DNA from: Lysobacter sp. K5869
Lineage (GTDB): Bacteria > Pseudomonadota > Gammaproteobacteria > Xanthomonadales > Xanthomonadaceae
Length of the DNA: 64,000 nucleotides
Direction: 5' to 3'
Assembly: GCF_018847975.1 (NCBI RefSeq)
Contig: NZ_CP072597.1
Span: 2,767,001 to 2,831,000 of the forward strand
Shown here: positions 29,742 through 40,721 of the stretch, piece by piece
Numbering within the stretch: the first letter of the stretch is position 1
Layout of the letters: each line of letters starts with the position of its first letter
Program-made: the position numbers and the translations under genes
Notes under the pieces: model-generated
What the model saw: the letters and a program-made list of their open reading frames with translations, nothing else
Told to the model about the DNA's origin: nothing
The model's database searches: none

Positions 29742-32700
29742 ATGACGTCCCCCCGCGTTTACATCGCGATTCCGGTGTTGCTGGCGGCAGCCGGCGCCGG
29801 GTACTGGTATTACAACGCCCGCGCCATCCAGGCCGGCGGTTCGCTGTCGCAGGTGCCGTTGAACTCGGCGGTGACGGTGCCGCCTGCCTTCGTCATGGCG
29901 GTCGACGATTCGGGTTCGATGACGTTCCAGACGTTGTTCCCGGGTCAGGACGGCCAGGCGTACTGGGCGAAGTCCGGTGCGGCGACCAACGGCTACTTCA
30001 CCGGCACCGGCGCGAACGCGCGCTTGCTGACCCAGAAGGACGGCGCCGATCTGGGCGGCTTCCACCACACCATTCCTTCGCCGGGTTATCGCATCGATAC
30101 CCAGCGCAGGGCGATCGCGCCGATCGACAACTTCGGCTTCGCCCGCTCGCCCGACTACAACCCCGCCTACTTCAATCCGACGGTCAAGTACGTGCCGTGG
30201 AAGAAGCCGGACGGCAACAACGCCATCGTCGATTATCCGCAGGCGAGCACCACCGCCACCTTGGTCGATCCGGATAAGACGAACACGATCCAGTTGGGCG
30301 TGGCCGGAACCGACGCCACCGCCCTGGCCTGGGGCTGGGCCGCCAACGGCACCGCCGAAGAGTTCTTCGTGGTGCCCAACGGCGCGACGCTGCCGAAGGA
30401 CACGGTGATCTATTACCGCAACGGCAACGGCAACAGCTGCGGCGGCATCGCCAGCAACAACAACTGGCGCGCGCTGACCGCCAACGCCACCCTCACCGCC
30501 GATTGCAACATCGCGATCAAGTACTACCCGGCGACGTTCTATTTGAAGACCGCCACCATCGTGCAGCCGGCCGATACCCCGGAAGACATGAAGGTCGGCT
30601 ACACCGCCACCGCGAAAGCGATCAGCAACGCCTGCGGCAGCGGCTGCACGCTGTACAAATACGAGATCCGCGAAGGCAACTTCGCCTCCAAGGCCAAGTT
30701 CAACACCGCCCTGCAGAATTTCGCCAATTGGTTCAGCTTCTACGGCAACCGCAACCGTTCGATCAAGGCGGCGATGACCATTTCGCTGGCCGATACCGAG
30801 AAGATGCGGGTCGGCATGTTCACCATCAACAGTCGCGTCAACGGCAGCTACGCCGACGTGACCATGCGCGATATGTCCGTCGCCGCGGACAAGGCCTCGC
30901 TGTATACCAATCAATTGCTGAAGATCGACGCCACGGGCGGCACGCCCAACCGTTTCGCGGTCGATCACATCGGCTATCAGTTCACGCTGCCCCCCGCCGA
31001 CAACTCCGAAGCAGCGCGCAATAAAGTTCCGGTCAAGTATGCCTGCCAGATCAACGCCGGCATGTTGTTCACCGACGGCTACAGCAATACCGGCGGCCCG
31101 GCCACGGGCTCGCAGGACGCGGACATGCCGGCGCCGTTGGCCGACACCTTCTCCGACACCTTGGCCGACACCGCGGCCAAGTACTACAAGATGAATCTGC
31201 GCGGCGATCTGCCGGCCGGCAAGGTCCCCGTTCCCGATGCGTGCAAGACCACGCCGGACGATCCCAAGCTGGATTGCCGCGCCGATCCGCACATGAATTT
31301 CTACGGCGTCACCCTCGGCGCCAAGGGCGACATCTACGGTCAGACCTACGATCCGACCACCAACACGCCCGATCCGTACAACGGCTGGCAGCCGCCGTGG
31401 CGCTCGCGCCAGGACGATGCGCCGAGCACCGTCGACGAAATCTGGCACGCGACCATGAACTCGCGCGGCAAGTTCATCAATGCGAGCACACCGGCCGACA
31501 TCACCTCGGCGATGCGCTCGATCCTGGCCTCGGTCGGCGGCGGCGAAACGCCGTCGGGCACGATTGGCCTGACCGGCGCGCGCATCGGCGGCAACTCGCT
31601 GAGCGTCGAGCCCAAGTACACCTCGGCCAACAGCGGCACCGACTGGTTCAGTTCGCTGACCGCGTACAAGTTGACCGGCGACGTGATCACCGGCGTCATC
31701 ACTCAGACCCAGAAGTGGGAAGCCGCGGGCAAGCTTGAGGGTGCCGGCCGCACCATCCGCTTCGGCAAGAGCATTTCGGGCAACGTGCGTCCGCAAGTGC
31801 AGGATTTCCAGGCCACCAACCTGGGCAGCGACGACGCGAGCGTGCAAGCCGCGCTGTGCAGCGACGCGCTGCAGAACTGCGCCGGCAAGTTCAGCCGCAT
31901 CGCCGGCGGCGTCACCGGCGCCGAAGCGGTGAGCTATCTGCGCGGCGCGCGCAACAACGACGGCGGCAAGTTGCGCAAGCGCACCACGCTGCTCGGCGAC
32001 ATCGTCAACTCGACGCCGATCATTTCGTCCTTCGGCGACGACTACGGCTACACCGGCCTGCGCAGCAACGACGGCACCACCGCCGACGTGTTGAATTACA
32101 CCAACTTCCTCAGCACCAAGCGCGCCCGCACCGGCGCCGCGCGCGAGCCGATGGTGTTCGTGGGCGCCAACGACGGCATGTTCCATGCCTTCGACGGTGC
32201 CGACGGCAGCGAGAAGTACGCCTACATTCCGGCGACCTCGGTCGGCCACATGGGCAACCTGCTGTTCCCGTACCGCGCCCAGGACCGCAACGATCAGGTG
32301 TTCCAGCACCGTTACTTCGTCGACGGCCTGGTGACGGTGTCCGACGCGCACGACGGTTCGGCGTGGAAGACCGTGGCGGTGGCCAGCGTCGGCGCCGGCG
32401 GCCGCGGCGTGTTCGGGCTGGACGTGACCGACCGCGATACGCTCAACGTGCTGTGGGAAATCAACGACAAGATCGGCGACGCCAACGGCGCCAAGGACAT
32501 CGGCAGCGTGCTCGGCAAGATCGCGATCGTGCCGGTCAAGGACGCCGGCAACGTGATCAAGTGGAAGGCGATCTTCGGCAACGGCTACGACAGCGTGAAC
32601 GGCAAGGCCGTGCTGTTCCTGGTCGACATCGCCGACGGCAAGGTCACCCGCATCACCGCGCAGGAGACCGGCGCCAATTTGCCGACCCGGGCCAAGAACG

Positions 32701-33620
32701 GCCTCGGCAATCTGGTCGTGATCGACCGCTACCAGGGCACCAGCGGCACGGTCGCCCGCGACGGCTTCGCCGACACGGTCTATGCCGGCGACCTCAACGG
32801 CGCGGTGTGGAAGTTCGACCTGCGCGACAACACCGTCGCCTTCGGCGGCAAGCCGCTGTTCGTCGCCCGCTACAAGGACGATTACACGCTGCGCCAGCCG
32901 ATCCTCGGCGGCTTCGAGGCGACCATGGCCGGCGACAACGTCATGATCTTCTTCGGCACCGGCAGCTTCTCGTTCATCGACGACCCGTCCGACAAGGCGA
33001 TGCAGAGCATCTACGGCATCCTCGACGACGGCAGCGCCCCGGTCGCCGGCCGCAGCGAACTGCAGGCGCAGTACGCCTACCAGGATCCGAGCACGACCGA
33101 GCGCTACATCACCAAGGACCGCCTCAACGCGACCAAACGCGGCTGGTACCTCAACCTGGGCGTGGACAGCGCGAAGGACGGCAACCCGGTCGCCACCGGC
33201 GAGCGCTTCGTCGGCAATCCGCGCATCCAGAACGGCACGCTGTTCTTCCCGACCTACGACCCGGTCGCCACCGACGGCTGCGCCACCACCGGCAACAACT
33301 GGCTCTACGGCCTCAACGCGCTCAGCGGCGGCGCCGATCTGTCCAGCGGCCGCCTGGCCTCGCCGACCGGCACGCGCTTGAACCAGAACACCGGCGCGAT
33401 CAAGCCGGCGCCCGGCAGCGCGGGCAGCTCGACGGCGCCGAACAAGGACATCGCCGTGGTCGCCTCGAGCCGTTCGGACATCTTGCCGGTCAACGCGACC
33501 CAGCAGCAGATCCAGGATGCGATCGCCAGCAAGTGCTCGGTGATGGTGCAGACCGCGGGCGCGCCGCCGATCTACTTGCCGCGTCCGTGCGGACGCCAGT
33601 CCTGGCGCCAGATCCGATAA
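29742..33620 (+). CDS. pilY1: Type IV pilus tip adhesin PilY1
   Basis: A 1292-residue protein exported by an N-terminal segment (VYIAIPVLLAAAGAGYWYY). A von Willebrand A-like region begins with a MIDAS DxSxS at D55-D-S57-G-S59 (VMAVDDSGSM). The C-terminal half is the PilY1 beta-propeller, recognisable by ARTGAAREPMVFVGANDGMFHAFD, VASVGAGGRGVFGLDV and TVYAGDLNGAVWKFDL. PilY1 sits at the pilus tip, promotes pilus extension and can mediate adhesion and surface sensing. The calcium loop before the YAGDLNG strand, acidic in Pseudomonas, reads TVARDGFADT here and is only partly conserved. It starts 10 bp after pilX. Confidence 0.93.
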   Translation: MTSPRVYIAIPVLLAAAGAGYWYYNARAIQAGGSLSQVPLNSAVTVPPAFVMAVDDSGSMTFQTLFPGQDGQAYWAKSGAATNGYFTGTGANARLLTQKDGADLGGFHHTIPSPGYRIDTQRRAIAPIDNFGFARSPDYNPAYFNPTVKYVPWKKPDGNNAIVDYPQASTTATLVDPDKTNTIQLGVAGTDATALAWGWAANGTAEEFFVVPNGATLPKDTVIYYRNGNGNSCGGIASNNNWRALTANATLTADCNIAIKYYPATFYLKTATIVQPADTPEDMKVGYTATAKAISNACGSGCTLYKYEIREGNFASKAKFNTALQNFANWFSFYGNRNRSIKAAMTISLADTEKMRVGMFTINSRVNGSYADVTMRDMSVAADKASLYTNQLLKIDATGGTPNRFAVDHIGYQFTLPPADNSEAARNKVPVKYACQINAGMLFTDGYSNTGGPATGSQDADMPAPLADTFSDTLADTAAKYYKMNLRGDLPAGKVPVPDACKTTPDDPKLDCRADPHMNFYGVTLGAKGDIYGQTYDPTTNTPDPYNGWQPPWRSRQDDAPSTVDEIWHATMNSRGKFINASTPADITSAMRSILASVGGGETPSGTIGLTGARIGGNSLSVEPKYTSANSGTDWFSSLTAYKLTGDVITGVITQTQKWEAAGKLEGAGRTIRFGKSISGNVRPQVQDFQATNLGSDDASVQAALCSDALQNCAGKFSRIAGGVTGAEAVSYLRGARNNDGGKLRKRTTLLGDIVNSTPIISSFGDDYGYTGLRSNDGTTADVLNYTNFLSTKRARTGAAREPMVFVGANDGMFHAFDGADGSEKYAYIPATSVGHMGNLLFPYRAQDRNDQVFQHRYFVDGLVTVSDAHDGSAWKTVAVASVGAGGRGVFGLDVTDRDTLNVLWEINDKIGDANGAKDIGSVLGKIAIVPVKDAGNVIKWKAIFGNGYDSVNGKAVLFLVDIADGKVTRITAQETGANLPTRAKNGLGNLVVIDRYQGTSGTVARDGFADTVYAGDLNGAVWKFDLRDNTVAFGGKPLFVARYKDDYTLRQPILGGFEATMAGDNVMIFFGTGSFSFIDDPSDKAMQSIYGILDDGSAPVAGRSELQAQYAYQDPSTTERYITKDRLNATKRGWYLNLGVDSAKDGNPVATGERFVGNPRIQNGTLFFPTYDPVATDGCATTGNNWLYGLNALSGGADLSSGRLASPTGTRLNQNTGAIKPAPGSAGSSTAPNKDIAVVASSRSDILPVNATQQQIQDAIASKCSVMVQTAGAPPIYLPRPCGRQSWRQIR

Positions 33621-33632
33621 CGAGGAATCGAC

Positions 33633-34085
33633 ATGAAGCAGTCGTTCGCCCCATCGCTGTCGCGCGTCCAACGCGGCTTCACCCTGATCGAGCTGATGAT
33701 CGCGATCGCGATCATCGGCATCCTGGTGGGCATCGCGGTGCCCACCTACCAGGACAGCGTGCGCAAGAGCCGGCGCGGTCAGGCCAAGGCCGATCTGGTC
33801 CAGATCGCCCAGGGCATGGAGCGTTACTACACCGAAGGCAACACCTACGTCGGCGCGGACCTGAGCAAGATCTGGGGACCGAACCTGCAGTCGCCGAGCA
33901 AGGGCACCTCGCGTTACACGATCTCGTTCAAGGCCGCCACGACCGCCAGCACCTTCGTCTTGCAGGCCGTGCCGGTGTCCGGCGCGGGCCAGGACAAGGA
34001 CAAGTGCGGCACGCTGACCATCGACAACGTGGGCCGCAAGACGCCCAGCGACAGCGGCAAGGAAGATTGCTGGAACATGAACTGA
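33633..34085 (+). CDS. pilE: Type IV minor pilin PilE
   Basis: A 150-residue pilin-like protein with leader ending QRG before FTLIELMIAIAIIGILVGIAVP, Glu5 present, and a short globular domain with a C-terminal disulfide pair (Cys in DKCGTLT and EDCWNMN). It has the PilE/minor pilin form rather than the major pilin PilA, because of its place at the end of the fimT-pilY1 operon, 12 bp after pilY1. A strong hairpin follows it. Confidence 0.92.
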   Translation: MKQSFAPSLSRVQRGFTLIELMIAIAIIGILVGIAVPTYQDSVRKSRRGQAKADLVQIAQGMERYYTEGNTYVGADLSKIWGPNLQSPSKGTSRYTISFKAATTASTFVLQAVPVSGAGQDKDKCGTLTIDNVGRKTPSDSGKEDCWNMN

Positions 34086-36241: not shown

Positions 36242-36307
36242 TGCGGCGGCGTTCGAGCGGCCGGTCGGCGGCGCGCGCGGGTAGGCGGATTCGGGGCGCG
36301 AAAAAGC

Positions 36308-36336
36308 TTGTCCCGGATCGGACTCTGGGCTAGACT
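36308..36336 (+). promoter_or_regulatory. Sigma70 promoter of tRNA-Val
   Basis: ttgtcc, a 17 bp spacer and tagact, about 41 bp upstream of the mature tRNA. Both boxes match consensus well. Confidence 0.65.
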
Positions 36337-36377
36337 GCGCTCCCTTCGCCGGGGAGCTTCACGAAAGATTCGGCGAC

Positions 36378-36452
36378 GGGCGATTAGCTCAGCGGTAGAG
36401 CACTACCTTGACATGGTAGGGGTCACAGGTTCGAACCCTGTATCGCCCACCA
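36378..36452 (+). tRNA. tRNA-Val (GAC)
   Basis: A 75-base cloverleaf with acceptor arms gggcgat and atcgccc, D-arm gctcagcggtagagc, anticodon stem ctacc/ggtag around loop ttgacat (anticodon GAC), T-arm caggttcgaaccctg, and encoded CCA. Its own promoter precedes it and a terminator follows. Confidence 0.97.
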
Positions 36453-36465
36453 ATTTAGAAAGCGA

Positions 36466-36494
36466 ACGGCGGAGCCCTCGGGCTCCGCCGTTTT
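36466..36494 (+). terminator. Rho-independent terminator after tRNA-Val
   Basis: acggcggagcc pairs with ggctccgccg around ctcg and is followed by tttt, 14 bp after the tRNA. Confidence 0.88.
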
Positions 36495-36873
36495 GCTATG
36501 CGCGAAGGCCGGGGCCGCGGTCGAGCGGGGAGTCCGCGGGCGGGCGCTTCGGGCTCATTCCGTGGGTGTGTCGAACTGCCCTGAAAACCTGTGCCGAGGT
36601 GGCTTGGGGCAAGTGAGCGACCGTTCGCGCAGGTGCGGAACGCCGTCACCTTTTGTTCACGTAATTTGTTCAGCGAACTGGTTGGCTTTGCCGAATTTGG
36701 CGTGCCGGAGCGCGCTCCAGGCTTTCGCTAACTCCCCGCCATGCTTGGTTTTTTTGGCGAGACCGGGGGCGCGCTGGCATAACCGACAGGTCCCCCGGTC
36801 TTGTCCGCCGCGAACGGCGCTTTCTATCTTGCCAACGCGGCGATCCGCCGCCTGGCTAAGGGAGTAGTAGGCA
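36495..36873 (+). promoter_or_regulatory. Leader and promoter region of the small peptide gene, with a perfect 10-bp inverted repeat
   Basis: This stretch contains no convincing gene. From about 36650 it is clearly more AT-rich than the surrounding chromosome, with two ttgttca repeats (near 36652 and 36667) and a run of seven T near 36750. At 36760-36769 and 36792-36801 agaccggggg and its exact complement form a hairpin with a 22-base loop, about 70 bp before the peptide start. A ribosome site (gggag) stands 9 bp before the ATG at 36874. The promoter could not be placed with certainty. Confidence 0.55.
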
Positions 36874-37035
36874 ATGACCGAGCAAACCCGCCTGATCGGC
36901 CGCATGGTCGCGATCGAGTCCGAACAGATGGAAGGCGCCGCGCAGGACGCGGCGTTCGTGGCTGCGACGACCTATCGCCGCACCAGCCCGTTCAATGAGA
37001 TCGACTCCGCCGACAACGGCGACGCGATTCCGTAA
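36874..37035 (+). CDS. Putative graspetide-type RiPP precursor peptide (53 residues)
   Basis: A 53-codon gene with a good ribosome site, starting MTEQTRLIGRM and ending at TAA. The first 30 residues look like a leader: mixed hydrophobic and acidic (AIESEQMEGAAQDAAF). The tail after residue 31 has hydroxyl residues (T32, T33, T37, S38) followed by carboxylates (E42, D44, D47, D50) in TTYRRTSPFNEIDSADNGD. That order is what ATP-grasp macrocyclases of graspetides use to form side-chain esters or amides. The gene faces an ATP-grasp and ABC exporter operon and shares a terminator with it. No precursor with this exact core is known to me; the function is inferred from context and composition. Confidence 0.6.
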   Translation: MTEQTRLIGRMVAIESEQMEGAAQDAAFVAATTYRRTSPFNEIDSADNGDAIP

Positions 37036-37061
37036 TCCGGGACTCCCGGACTACGCAGGGG

Positions 37062-37101
37062 AAAACGGGCCGGGAGGCATCGCCTCCCGGCCCGTTCTTT
37101 T
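37062..37101. terminator. Bidirectional terminator between the peptide gene and the ATP-grasp gene
   Basis: A perfect 15 bp stem (37064-37078 with 37082-37096) and 3-base loop, flanked by aaaa on the left and tttt on the right, so it serves convergent transcripts. It is 28 bp after the peptide stop and 131 bp beyond the ATP-grasp stop. Another short tccggga hairpin lies at 37036-37050. Confidence 0.88.
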
Positions 37102-37231
37102 GTGGGGCGCGCGATGGCCGGCGAGCCCGGGTTCCGACATCGCAACAGACGAGCCGGCGTTCCCCGCGTCGGCTTTCCTCAAGCCGGCTCGCGTCGCATC
37201 GGCGCCATCCGCGCCGATGCGACGACGCCGC

Positions 37232-38353
37232 TCATTCGTGCATCTGAAACACCTGCGGCAACGGCACATGCCGCCCCGCGGGCGGCTCGGCCTCGCCGCG
37301 CTCGCCGCGCGACTCCCAGTAATCGCGATAGCGGTACACCGGTTCGCGCCAGTCGTAGACGAAGGCCGGATCGCGGCTGCGGATGAATTCGACCACGCAG
37401 TCCATCAACTGCAGACCCGGGTTGATCGCCTCCAGCCACATGAACTGGCCCATCTCGTTGACTTCGAGAAACACGTAGCGGCCGTCGCGGGTGACCACGA
37501 TGTCGATGCAGCCGAACACCAAGCCCATCCGCGCCATCGTCTGCAAGCAGCGCGTTTCGACCTCCTCCGGCAGCGTGTAGCGCTCGCAGCCCATGCGCTC
37601 GTCGAAGTCGTTGGCGCGCCAGTCGGTGAGGTACTCGCCGTCGCGCTGCGAGTGCAGGCGCGCGGCGATCACGGTGCGGCCCATCACCGTCACCCGCAGT
37701 TCGTAGGCCTTGTCCAGCAGCGGCTGGTAGATGCCGGGCGCGTTCGACAGCGCCGCATCTTCGCGCAGCAGCTCGTCGGTCAGCGGCGTGGTGAAGGTGC
37801 CCCAGACCTTGTCCTCGCCGATCCACGCCGCGGCGGTGATCGGCTTGTAGATCGCGCGGCCGCCGTGTTCGCGATAGAACGCGCGGATCGCCGCGGGGTC
37901 GTTGGAGATCAGCGTCGGCGGCGTGTCCAGGCCCACGGCGGCGGCGTGGTGCAGCTGCACCGCCTTGCGGTCGGCCAGCGCCTTGGCCTGCACCGGATTG
38001 ATCCAGAAGCGCTCGCGCTGCGCGTCGAGCAAGTTGATGGCCGCGCGCACGAACTCGGTGGATTCCAGCTGAGAGAAGCGCACGTCGGCCGGATGCAGCT
38101 GTTCCGACGGCGCGGGCTGATACCAGCGGCGCAGCCACACCGTGTCGATGTCGGCGGTGTCGACGTCGTGATCGTGGCGGAAGCAGTGCAGCGACACCGA
38201 TGCCGCGCCGCCGCCGGTGCGCAGGCTGACGCCGTGCTTTTGCGGATAGTCGTGGGTGTACCAGACATGCACGCGCTCGCCTTCGTTCTCCAGCGCCCAG
38301 GCCGCCGAACGGGCGTGGATGTCCCAAGGGTCGGAGACAATCAAAATCGTCAT
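37232..38353 (-). CDS. MvdD/RimK-type ATP-grasp ligase, putative graspetide macrocyclase
   Basis: A 373-residue ATP-grasp protein. Residues 1-115 form an N-terminal pre-ATP-grasp region like that of microviridin ligases (MTILIVSDPWDIHARS, later VWLRRW). Then INPVQAKALADRKAVQLHHAA, the nucleotide-binding Lys170 in AIYKPITAAAW, Arg220 region, and the metal-binding end of the fold: D284 (GCIDIVV) and E297/N299 in FLEVNEMGQFMWLE. The last motif closely resembles graspetide ligases (EVN-x-x-GQ-x-x-W-x-E). It would phosphorylate Glu/Asp side chains and join them to Thr/Ser or Lys. Start follows gaagga, 11 bp after the ABC gene. A RimK-like amino-acid ligase acting on another protein remains possible. 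Confidence 0.75.
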   Translation of the reverse strand: MTILIVSDPWDIHARSAAWALENEGERVHVWYTHDYPQKHGVSLRTGGGAASVSLHCFRHDHDVDTADIDTVWLRRWYQPAPSEQLHPADVRFSQLESTEFVRAAINLLDAQRERFWINPVQAKALADRKAVQLHHAAAVGLDTPPTLISNDPAAIRAFYREHGGRAIYKPITAAAWIGEDKVWGTFTTPLTDELLREDAALSNAPGIYQPLLDKAYELRVTVMGRTVIAARLHSQRDGEYLTDWRANDFDERMGCERYTLPEEVETRCLQTMARMGLVFGCIDIVVTRDGRYVFLEVNEMGQFMWLEAINPGLQLMDCVVEFIRSRDPAFVYDWREPVYRYRDYWESRGERGEAEPPAGRHVPLPQVFQMHE

Positions 38354-38364
38354 GCGCGTGTCCT

Positions 38365-40230
38365 TCAGTCGGTAAGGGCGGTGGCGGAGGTGGATTCGGG
38401 CGCGCCGGCGTCGGCGCCGTCGGCTTCGCGCGCGGCGCGCCCGGGCGAGACCTGCGCGCGGCGCTGCTGCATCGCCCACAGCGCGGCGTAGCGGCCGCCG
38501 GCGGCGAGCAGTTCGGCGTGGCTGCCGCGCTCGGCGATGCGGCCGGCTTCCAGCACCACGATCAGATCGGCGTCGACCACGGTCGAGAGGCGGTGGGCGA
38601 TCACCAGCGCGGTGCGGCCCTGCGCGGCCTGTTCGAGTTCGCGCTGGATCTCGTTCTCGGTGTGCGCGTCCAGGGCCGAGGTGGCCTCGTCGAAGATCAG
38701 GATCGCCGGCCGCTTGAGCAGGGTGCGGGCGATGGCGATGCGCTGTTTTTCGCCGCCGGACAGCTTGAGCCCGCGTTCGCCCACGCCGGTGTCGTAGCCC
38801 TGCGGCAGCGCCTGGATGAAGTCGTGGATGCGCGCGGCGCGCGCGGCTTCGATCACGTCCTCGCGGCTGGCGTCGGGGCGGCCGTAGGCGATGTTGTAGT
38901 ACAGCGATTCGTTGAACAGCACGGTGTCCTGCGGCACCACGCCGATGCGCCGGCGCAGCGAATCGGCGGTCACCTCGCGCAGGTCCTGGCCGTCGATCAG
39001 CACGCGCCCGCCGTCGGGGTCGTAGTGGCGGTACAGCAGCCGCGCCAAGGTCGATTTGCCCGCGCCGGTGCTGCCGACCACGGCCACGGTGCGGCCGCTG
39101 GGGATGGTCAGGTCGATGCCGGACAGAATCTCGCGCTCGCCGTAACGAAAGCGCACGTTCTCGAACCGCACCTCGCCCGCGCCCACGCGCAGCGCCGGCG
39201 CATCGGGTTGGTCGCGCACGTCCACCGGTTCGTCGAGCAGCGCGAACATGCGCTCCAGGTTGGCCAGCATCTGCTTGCCTTCGCGGTAGACCACGCCCAG
39301 GTAGCTCAGCGGCGCGGCCATCTGCAGCAGGTAGGCGTTGACCAGGACCAGATCGCCCAGGCTCATGCGCCCGTCGACCACGCCCGCGGTGGCTCGCCAC
39401 AGCAGCGCGGTCAGGCCCACGGCGATGATCGCGGACTGGCCGATGCCCATCAGCGAAGCGGCCTTGAGGCTGCGCACCGCGGTGTCTTCCAGTTCGCGCA
39501 GGCGGTGGTCGAAGCGCTGGGTTTCGAACGCCTCGTTGTTGAAGTACTTGACCGTCTCGTAGTTCAGCAGCGAATCGACCGCGCCGGCGCTGGTCTCGGT
39601 GTTGGCCTCGTTCATTTGCCGGTACCAGCGCAGCCGCCACTCGGTCATGCGGTAGGTGAAAGCCAGGTACACGGCGAGCGTGACCAGGGTGATCGCGGCG
39701 AACGAGAGGTCGTAGCCGACGATCAGGACCGCGGCGATCAGGCCCAGCTCGACCAGGGTCGGCACCACCATGTACAGCACGGTGTCGAGCAGTTCGGAGA
39801 TCGAGCCCATGCCGCGTTCCAGGTCGCGGCCGACCGCGCCGGTGCGGCGGTCGAGGTGGAAGCGCAGGCTCAGCGCGTGCAGATGCTGGAACACTCGCAA
39901 CCCGACCTCGCGCGAGCTGCGCGCCAGCACCCGCGCGAACACGATGGTGCGCAGCTCCTGCAGCAGCGAGGACGCCAGCCGCAGCGCGCCGTAGGCCATC
40001 AGCAGCGCGGCCGGCACGGTCAGCGCGGTCGGCTTCATTTCCAGCGCGTCGATCAGCTGCTTGAGCACCAGCGGGATCGCGACCATGGCCAGCTTGGTGC
40101 CCAGCACCAGCGCCAGACCGAGCAGCAGGCGGCCGCGGTAATGCCACACCGTCGGCAGCAGGCGGCGCAGGACGGCGAGGGCGGAACCGCTGGCGGTCGG
40201 GGCGGCGGGGGAGGGGGCGGACTCGTTCAT
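38365..40230 (-). CDS. ABC exporter (fused membrane and ATPase domains, Atm1/HMT1-like)
   Basis: A 621-residue half-transporter that would work as a dimer. About six membrane helices occupy residues 25-320, then the ATPase domain: Walker A GSTGAGKST, Q-loop VPQDTVLFNES, signature LKLSGGEKQRIA, Walker B AILIFDEATSALD, and switch His in VIAHRLS. The NYETVKYFNNE stretch in the membrane part is typical of the Atm1/HMT1 subgroup. There is no C39 leader peptidase domain. The ATP-grasp gene follows after 11 bp, so the two are one operon, which suggests export of the ligase product, although an older housekeeping role in cofactor or peptide export cannot be excluded. Confidence 0.85.
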   Translation of the reverse strand: MNESAPSPAAPTASGSALAVLRRLLPTVWHYRGRLLLGLALVLGTKLAMVAIPLVLKQLIDALEMKPTALTVPAALLMAYGALRLASSLLQELRTIVFARVLARSSREVGLRVFQHLHALSLRFHLDRRTGAVGRDLERGMGSISELLDTVLYMVVPTLVELGLIAAVLIVGYDLSFAAITLVTLAVYLAFTYRMTEWRLRWYRQMNEANTETSAGAVDSLLNYETVKYFNNEAFETQRFDHRLRELEDTAVRSLKAASLMGIGQSAIIAVGLTALLWRATAGVVDGRMSLGDLVLVNAYLLQMAAPLSYLGVVYREGKQMLANLERMFALLDEPVDVRDQPDAPALRVGAGEVRFENVRFRYGEREILSGIDLTIPSGRTVAVVGSTGAGKSTLARLLYRHYDPDGGRVLIDGQDLREVTADSLRRRIGVVPQDTVLFNESLYYNIAYGRPDASREDVIEAARAARIHDFIQALPQGYDTGVGERGLKLSGGEKQRIAIARTLLKRPAILIFDEATSALDAHTENEIQRELEQAAQGRTALVIAHRLSTVVDADLIVVLEAGRIAERGSHAELLAAGGRYAALWAMQQRRAQVSPGRAAREADGADAGAPESTSATALTD

Positions 40231-40610
40231 CGACCTGCGCGGTACGGGGGCGGGGCGAGGGCGGGGCGGCGGACCGTGCATGCATCGCCGGCCTTGCGAG
40301 CCGCGGCGAGCAGACTGGCCGCGGGAGCGATCTCGGTGGCGCCGCCCGCGCGACGCGAGCGGCCCGGCGCGTGGCGAGGCTCGCCGCAGCCCGAGGCGCC
40401 GAGATCCGCGCGACCTTCGGCCCGACGGCCCTTGCGGTCGCCGCCGTCCATCCGCGCCGACCACAGCGCCCGGCAGCCGCGCGGCGCGCGGCCGGCTTCC
40501 CTGATTCCCATCACGTCCCCACGCAGATGGCGTCCTTGAAGCAGCCACAGTACCGCAGGCGAGCGCAATTCCCGTGTGCGCCCCGTCGCGGTCCGGCGGG
40601 CGACGAACGG
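40231..40610. other. Intergenic region with no recognised gene
   Basis: This GC-rich stretch lies between the divergent ABC exporter and thrS. Open frames here look like shadows. It must contain the promoter of the ABC/ATP-grasp operon on the minus strand, which I could not locate. Confidence 0.45.
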
Positions 40611-40640
40611 TTGACTTGGCCCCGCCGCGTCCCCAACTAT
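40611..40640 (+). promoter_or_regulatory. Probable thrS promoter
   Basis: ttgact, an 18 bp spacer and aactat. It would start a transcript near 40647 with a leader of about 285 bases before thrS. Confidence 0.5.
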
Positions 40641-40721
40641 TAGCGACTGCGACGCGGCATCCGGCCGCATCCCCCAGAGTCTTTAGGTGGCCCGCGCCAA
40701 CCCGCCGGCCGAGCGTGCGAC

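Follow-up and report, generated by a model that had tools for sequence, protein, structure and literature searches.

Graspetides are peptides stapled by ATP-grasp ligases, and nested stem-loop, staggered and tandem arrangements of their links are known (PMC12291112). About half of graspetide precursors contain a Phhx(1,2)h motif in the leader, and a group of predicted Lysobacter precursors with branch 3 ATP-grasp ligases and another configuration of link residues was placed in cluster 859 by Makarova et al. 2022 (PMC8939145). Thatisin belongs to graspetide group 16 (PMC13097080). Gra-8 of L. capsici is a group 19 graspetide with four conserved C-terminal acceptors and at most three dehydrations, and its rings are not assigned (PMC9576775). 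Here we describe a locus in a 64,000-nucleotide stretch of the Lysobacter sp. K5869 genome (NZ_CP072597.1, positions 2,767,001 to 2,831,000; the window), which is part of a single contig of 5.97 Mb. The interval from uvrB and a tRNA-Val gene to thrS holds a gene for a 53-residue peptide on the forward strand and, convergent with it, genes for an ATP-grasp ligase and an ATP-binding cassette (ABC) exporter on the reverse strand. The three genes very probably constitute a graspetide system, in which the peptide would be stapled by the ligase and exported by the Atm1-type transporter; the chemistry is proposed from sequence comparison. The peptide resembles Gra-8 in its four conserved C-terminal acceptors. 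The likeness to cluster 859 consists of the genus and the branch 3 ATP-grasp ligase, compared by description, as the text prints no sequence.

The ligase scored 169–187 bits with the MvdD, SAV_5884 and MvdC models and exceeded the Pfam cut-off for PF21068, and its sequence matches in the PDB include MdnC, MdnB, AMdnB, CdnC and PsnB, which supports the resemblance to microviridin-type enzymes suggested by the first-pass annotation. The small gene belongs to a conserved family. A search of 5.8 billion proteins returned seven relatives from the single sequence and 35 from a 19-row alignment, one of them named from a Nevskia metagenome-assembled genome; for eight of these 35 homologs, the longest contig is equal in size to that of a ligase homolog. 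In the genus, where all candidates were scored, the peptide is present in 12 of 20 genomes and missing from eight, in agreement with the family search for the 18 genus genomes common to both. In many genomes of the family, order and class samples the best 16–22 candidates were scored, so that peptides may have been missed; these searches found the peptide in 12 of 297, six of 398 and one of 369 genomes, respectively, the last being the source genome, and one of the six from the order (G038, E 8.9e-4, within a 371-residue frame) was taken as a chance match. A ligase ortholog of at least 52% identity occurs in the same 12 family genomes; the ligase search at an E-value of 1e-30 listed 37 of the 297, and the remaining 25 carry more distant ligases only. 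A chance open reading frame was considered for the small gene and rejected, as it has homologs in protein databases and is conserved in the family genomes and loci.

The ligase is present in all 14 peptide-positive genomes, and peptide, ligase and exporter genes adjoin in the window and in 13 other loci, which bears out the earlier proposal of a compact three-gene system with the small gene conserved beside the ligase in relatives. Three layouts were observed. The convergent one, between uvrB/tRNA-Val and thrS, is common to 12 Lysobacter loci. In a locus from another genus (L046), the peptide, exporter and ligase genes lie in a row on a single strand, and in a further one outside Lysobacter (L047), exporter and ligase are divergent and the peptide gene is convergent with that of the ligase. 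The description of the precursor as transcribed toward its enzyme operon thus applies to the 12 Lysobacter loci and fails in the genus with all three genes on one strand. Four of the eight peptide-negative genomes of the genus were examined, and in all four the uvrB–thrS interval has no match to the three genes. Ligase orthologs with 90 and 89% identity are present in Lysobacter sp. yr284 and L. antibioticus HS124, respectively. Two more orthologs come from records named Pseudomonas sp. CGJS7 (P0045, 67% identical) and Streptomyces sp. S12 (P0046, 86% identical, a partial protein); these records are probably misnamed or contaminated. The uvrB–thrS interval contains 2.7 kb of other DNA in a peptide-negative relative (L113, 8261–10995) and 4.6 kb of extra DNA in L053 (7677–12246), and its tRNA-Val site may be an uptake point for inserts.

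The alignment of 36 peptide sequences, three of which are short at the N-terminus, contains two conserved parts. Residues 6–15 (RLIGRMVAIE) are strongly conserved. The core follows the pattern [STC]-T-x3-[TS]-x(4 or 6)-E-[IV]-D-x-A-D-N-G-D-x-[IV]-P, in which the first position is Ser in 23, Thr in nine and Cys in four sequences, position 37 is Thr in 35 and Ser in one, and the spacer measures four residues in 21 and six in 15. Thr33 and position 37 are therefore fixed hydroxyl donors, and all four acids are fixed in 36/36 sequences. Among the genome loci, Thr replaces Ala46 in two (L048, L061). By eye, the window core matches none of the microviridin, plesiocin and thuringinin patterns. For comparison of codon substitution by region, 36 pairs of 53-codon copies were available, of which the eight that include L046 were excluded because of their shifted register; in nine of the 28 remaining, Lysobacter-type pairs, nonsynonymous substitution (dN) exceeded synonymous substitution (dS) in the core, although the stretches are short and the values noisy. 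These pairs argue against a uniformly constrained core and in favour of changes at its free positions. The window peptide has no GG leader site. In one metagenomic family member (P0033), RLLGRLVARELS is followed by a GG-rich stretch, and a match to Mersacidin falls short of the cut-off; this protein is a possible bridge to GG-leader precursors, which hints at, and does not prove, the loss of a GG site.

Based on these patterns, a mechanism of peptide maturation can be proposed. The ribosome would produce the 53-residue precursor, whose conserved leader (RL-GR, residues 6–10) may bind the ATP-grasp ligase. With ATP, the ligase would phosphorylate the side-chain carboxylates of E42, D44, D47 and D50 in the acid-rich C-terminal strand. 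They would then be attacked by the hydroxyl groups of T37, T33 and S/T32 in the upstream strand, and two or three nested ester rings would form in a hairpin. The leader is presumably trimmed by a protease encoded elsewhere, and the Atm1-type exporter would carry the product out of the cell. A hairpin of the two strands would set T37 opposite E42, and a turn of four or six residues keeps the register, from which nested links would follow. The most likely pairing is therefore T37 with E42 as the innermost ring, then T33 with D44, and then residue 32 with D47 or D50.

The ligase could also act on the peptide and form different links, namely amides, esters in another pairing such as a staggered one, or two esters that leave the other acids free, a possibility that we take seriously but do not favour. 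Only T33 and position 37 are fixed hydroxyl donors against four fixed acids, some members have a lysine at position 38, and staggered and tandem graspetides have precedents. The lysine is, however, limited to a few members, and spacers of four or six residues suit a hairpin of the nested stem-loop kind. The first-pass annotation expected only ester links from a core devoid of lysine; this is correct for the window core and does not extend to three of the 14 loci, those of the L. capsici type and the Root690 type, which have Lys at position 38.

The source genome contains a second graspetide ligase (C1:1784547-1785554, L002 / L057), which is 36% identical to the first and is preceded by a 56-residue precursor with a GG site and the core GKGDTTHATGPNGDDPGDPDLL. 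The precursor in the second locus of genome G138 has the core GKGDTTHATGPNGDDPGDPD, and the same core or a one-letter variant is present in all ten second loci that were read; nine were aligned, with L064 omitted as a repeat of L063, and the second locus of G297 is outside the ten. This THAT core, which fits the name, is presumably that of thatisin, and the cluster is probably a thatisin cluster. It differs from the 53-residue type in its core, in the presence of a GG site and in its ligases, which form a separate group; its leader RPLARIAARELS aligns with RLIGRMVAIE weakly (hhalign P 0.023, probability 2%). The THAT-core peptides are as conserved within the genus as the 53-residue peptide family. 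In L. antibioticus HS124 (G116), G217 and G252, there is also a third ATP-grasp ligase, which is distant (29% identical; L079, L080 and L081).

The two clusters help to place Gra-8. The L. capsici ligase shares 99.5 and 98.4% identity with those of G138 and G297, respectively, and each of these two genomes has two graspetide ligases. Since L. capsici-like genomes encode the 53-residue type and the THAT-core type, presumably group 16, Gra-8 of group 19 is by elimination probably the 53-residue type, and this type of locus has then already been touched on in print. Cluster 859 could equally be the THAT-core family instead. If Gra-8 is of the type described here, the 36 sequences provide a testable prediction for its missing ring assignment.

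The closest solved relatives of the exporter are Atm1, ABCB7 and NaAtm1. The match to NaAtm1 (4mrn, 'ATM1-type heavy metal exporter') has an E-value of 2.8e-156, and mitochondrial relatives match as well or better. No peptidase family is among its seven Pfam matches, and none of the 25 NCBIfam models listed reached its cut-off. In 16 genomes searched at an E-value of 1e-100, all eight with the system have the cluster copy, and seven of the eight also a second, housekeeping-type copy; the exception, G248, has a single copy beside its ligase, and the eight genomes without the system have one copy each. In a midpoint-rooted tree of 23 rows, the cluster copies group together with 100/100 support, and G248 and G196 have long end branches. 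Eleven sites differ consistently between cluster and housekeeping exporters, and they indicate no cargo. A limited literature search found no graspetide paired with an Atm1-type transporter.

An alternative is that the product, rather than being a diversifying natural product or a weapon, serves one constant physiological purpose as a cross-linked ligand of metals or thiols or as a signal, moved by the Atm1-type transporter. Hardly any variation across genera is seen in the strand ExDxADNGDxIP, the exporter belongs to a family called heavy metal exporters by PDB depositors and is grouped apart from the housekeeping copy, and in 12 Lysobacter loci the system has a stable position flanked by tRNA-Val and thrS. 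Nevertheless, the system is missing from eight of the 20 genus genomes and from most of the family. We consider a constant role unlikely, and lowered our estimate because the THAT-core peptides encoded by these genomes show equal conservation within the genus, so that conservation there is not special, and because dN exceeds dS in the core in nine of 28 pairs. The fixed Asn-Gly of the core could form a succinimide without any methyltransferase.

Several observations weigh against the proposed graspetide system. For every NCBIfam model that it matched, the ligase falls short of the curated cut-off, and none of the sequences in the peptide family matched the curated graspetide precursor families. 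The leader stretch RL[IL]GR is conserved but has no proline as in the Phhx(1,2)h motif. Cys takes position 32 in 4/36 sequences, and one genome locus (L051) has Asp instead of E42. An inspection by eye of the open reading frames listed between uvrB and thrS showed no protease gene, which leaves leader removal unexplained. In Escherichia coli, the modification of the peptide from L. capsici, which is probably of the same type, was judged inefficient (PMC9576775). The broad RimK domain of Pfam also passes its cut-off in the ligase (21.9 over 21); even so, a RimK- or GshB-like amino acid ligase beside an unrelated small gene is extremely improbable and was rejected, since the RimK model scored 37.2 bits against a cut-off of 143.4, far from the graspetide models, RimK is absent from the PDB matches at 1e-3, and the co-occurrence of peptide and ligase in three layouts comes near to refuting it.

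The features of the locus are listed in Table 1. The first-pass annotation had described the 53-residue gene with a good ribosome site and the residues T32, T33, T37, S38, E42, D44, D47 and D50, the start and end of the 373-residue ATP-grasp protein, the exporter gene that ends 11 bp ahead of the ligase gene, and a terminator shared by the convergent transcripts; all of these are present, and the exporter is now assigned to the Atm1 family. By eye, a GGAG stretch precedes the peptide gene in all 12 Lysobacter copies. The region contains three terminator-like sites, which is not above shuffled sequences (mean 2.2, sd 1.5); the stems of the other two are of five pairs only, compared with 15 for the shared hairpin, around which 75 nt fold with a z-score of -6.4 relative to shuffles. 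A search of 36300-40700 for sigma-70-like promoters gave none, which carries little weight in such GC-rich DNA. Elsewhere in the window, a type IV pilin-like gene (33633-34085, FTLIELMIAIAIIGIL) comes after the gene of a large PilY1-like protein (29742-33620), as judged by eye.

Table 1. Features of the predicted graspetide locus, in positions of the window.
Feature	Position	Strand	Basis
tRNA-Val	36378-36452		Beside uvrB, before the peptide gene
Likely ribosome-binding site AAGGGAG of the peptide gene	36858..36864	+	Sequence; GGGAG at 36860-36864, before ATG, by eye
Predicted graspetide precursor gene, 53 aa	36874..37035	+	Conserved family, 36 sequences aligned
Leader stretch RLIGRMVAIE, codons 6-15, likely ligase-binding part	36889..36918	+	Strong conservation; role by analogy with leader motifs (PMC8939145)
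Core TTYRRTSPFNEIDSADNGDAIP, codons 32-53; candidate donors T32, T33, T37; candidate acceptors E42, D44, D47, D50	36967..37032	+	Pattern in 36/36
Shared hairpin terminator between convergent transcripts	37064..37096	.	15 pairs, loop of 3; T runs on either side, by eye
Predicted graspetide synthetase, MvdC/MvdD-type ATP-grasp ligase, 373 aa	37232..38353	-	Profile, PDB sequence and alignment matches
Atm1-family ABC exporter, 621 aa, dedicated paralog without peptidase domain	38365..40230	-	Pfam and PDB matches, tree

The proposed system shares with known graspetides the ligase family with its pre-ATP-grasp domain and the DWR and FLE-x-N residues that align with those of MdnC, as well as a short precursor with hydroxyl donors ahead of acidic acceptors. 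It differs from them in the core TxxxTx(4,6)ExDxxDxxD with its fixed NGD and C-terminal [IV]P, in the Atm1-type exporter, and in the Lysobacter precursor gene being convergent with the enzyme genes. Exporters of ribosomally synthesized and post-translationally modified peptides of the NHLM/PCAT kind contain a C39 peptidase domain and go with a GG leader site, whereas the exporter of this locus has no peptidase match and the window peptide no GG. Compared with Atm1, ABCB7 and NaAtm1, it matches the family but is a paralog beside a graspetide ligase and is grouped apart from the housekeeping copies. Set against the THAT-core peptides, the remaining peculiarity is a C-terminal strand that is preserved in other genera as well, and such a fixed core raises the question of whether some graspetides perform constant physiological work. 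The predicted product would belong to a known kind of natural product with a core sequence that has been little studied, and the locus stands out by a core fixed across genera, an exporter of the Atm1 type and a precursor that lacks a GG cleavage site.

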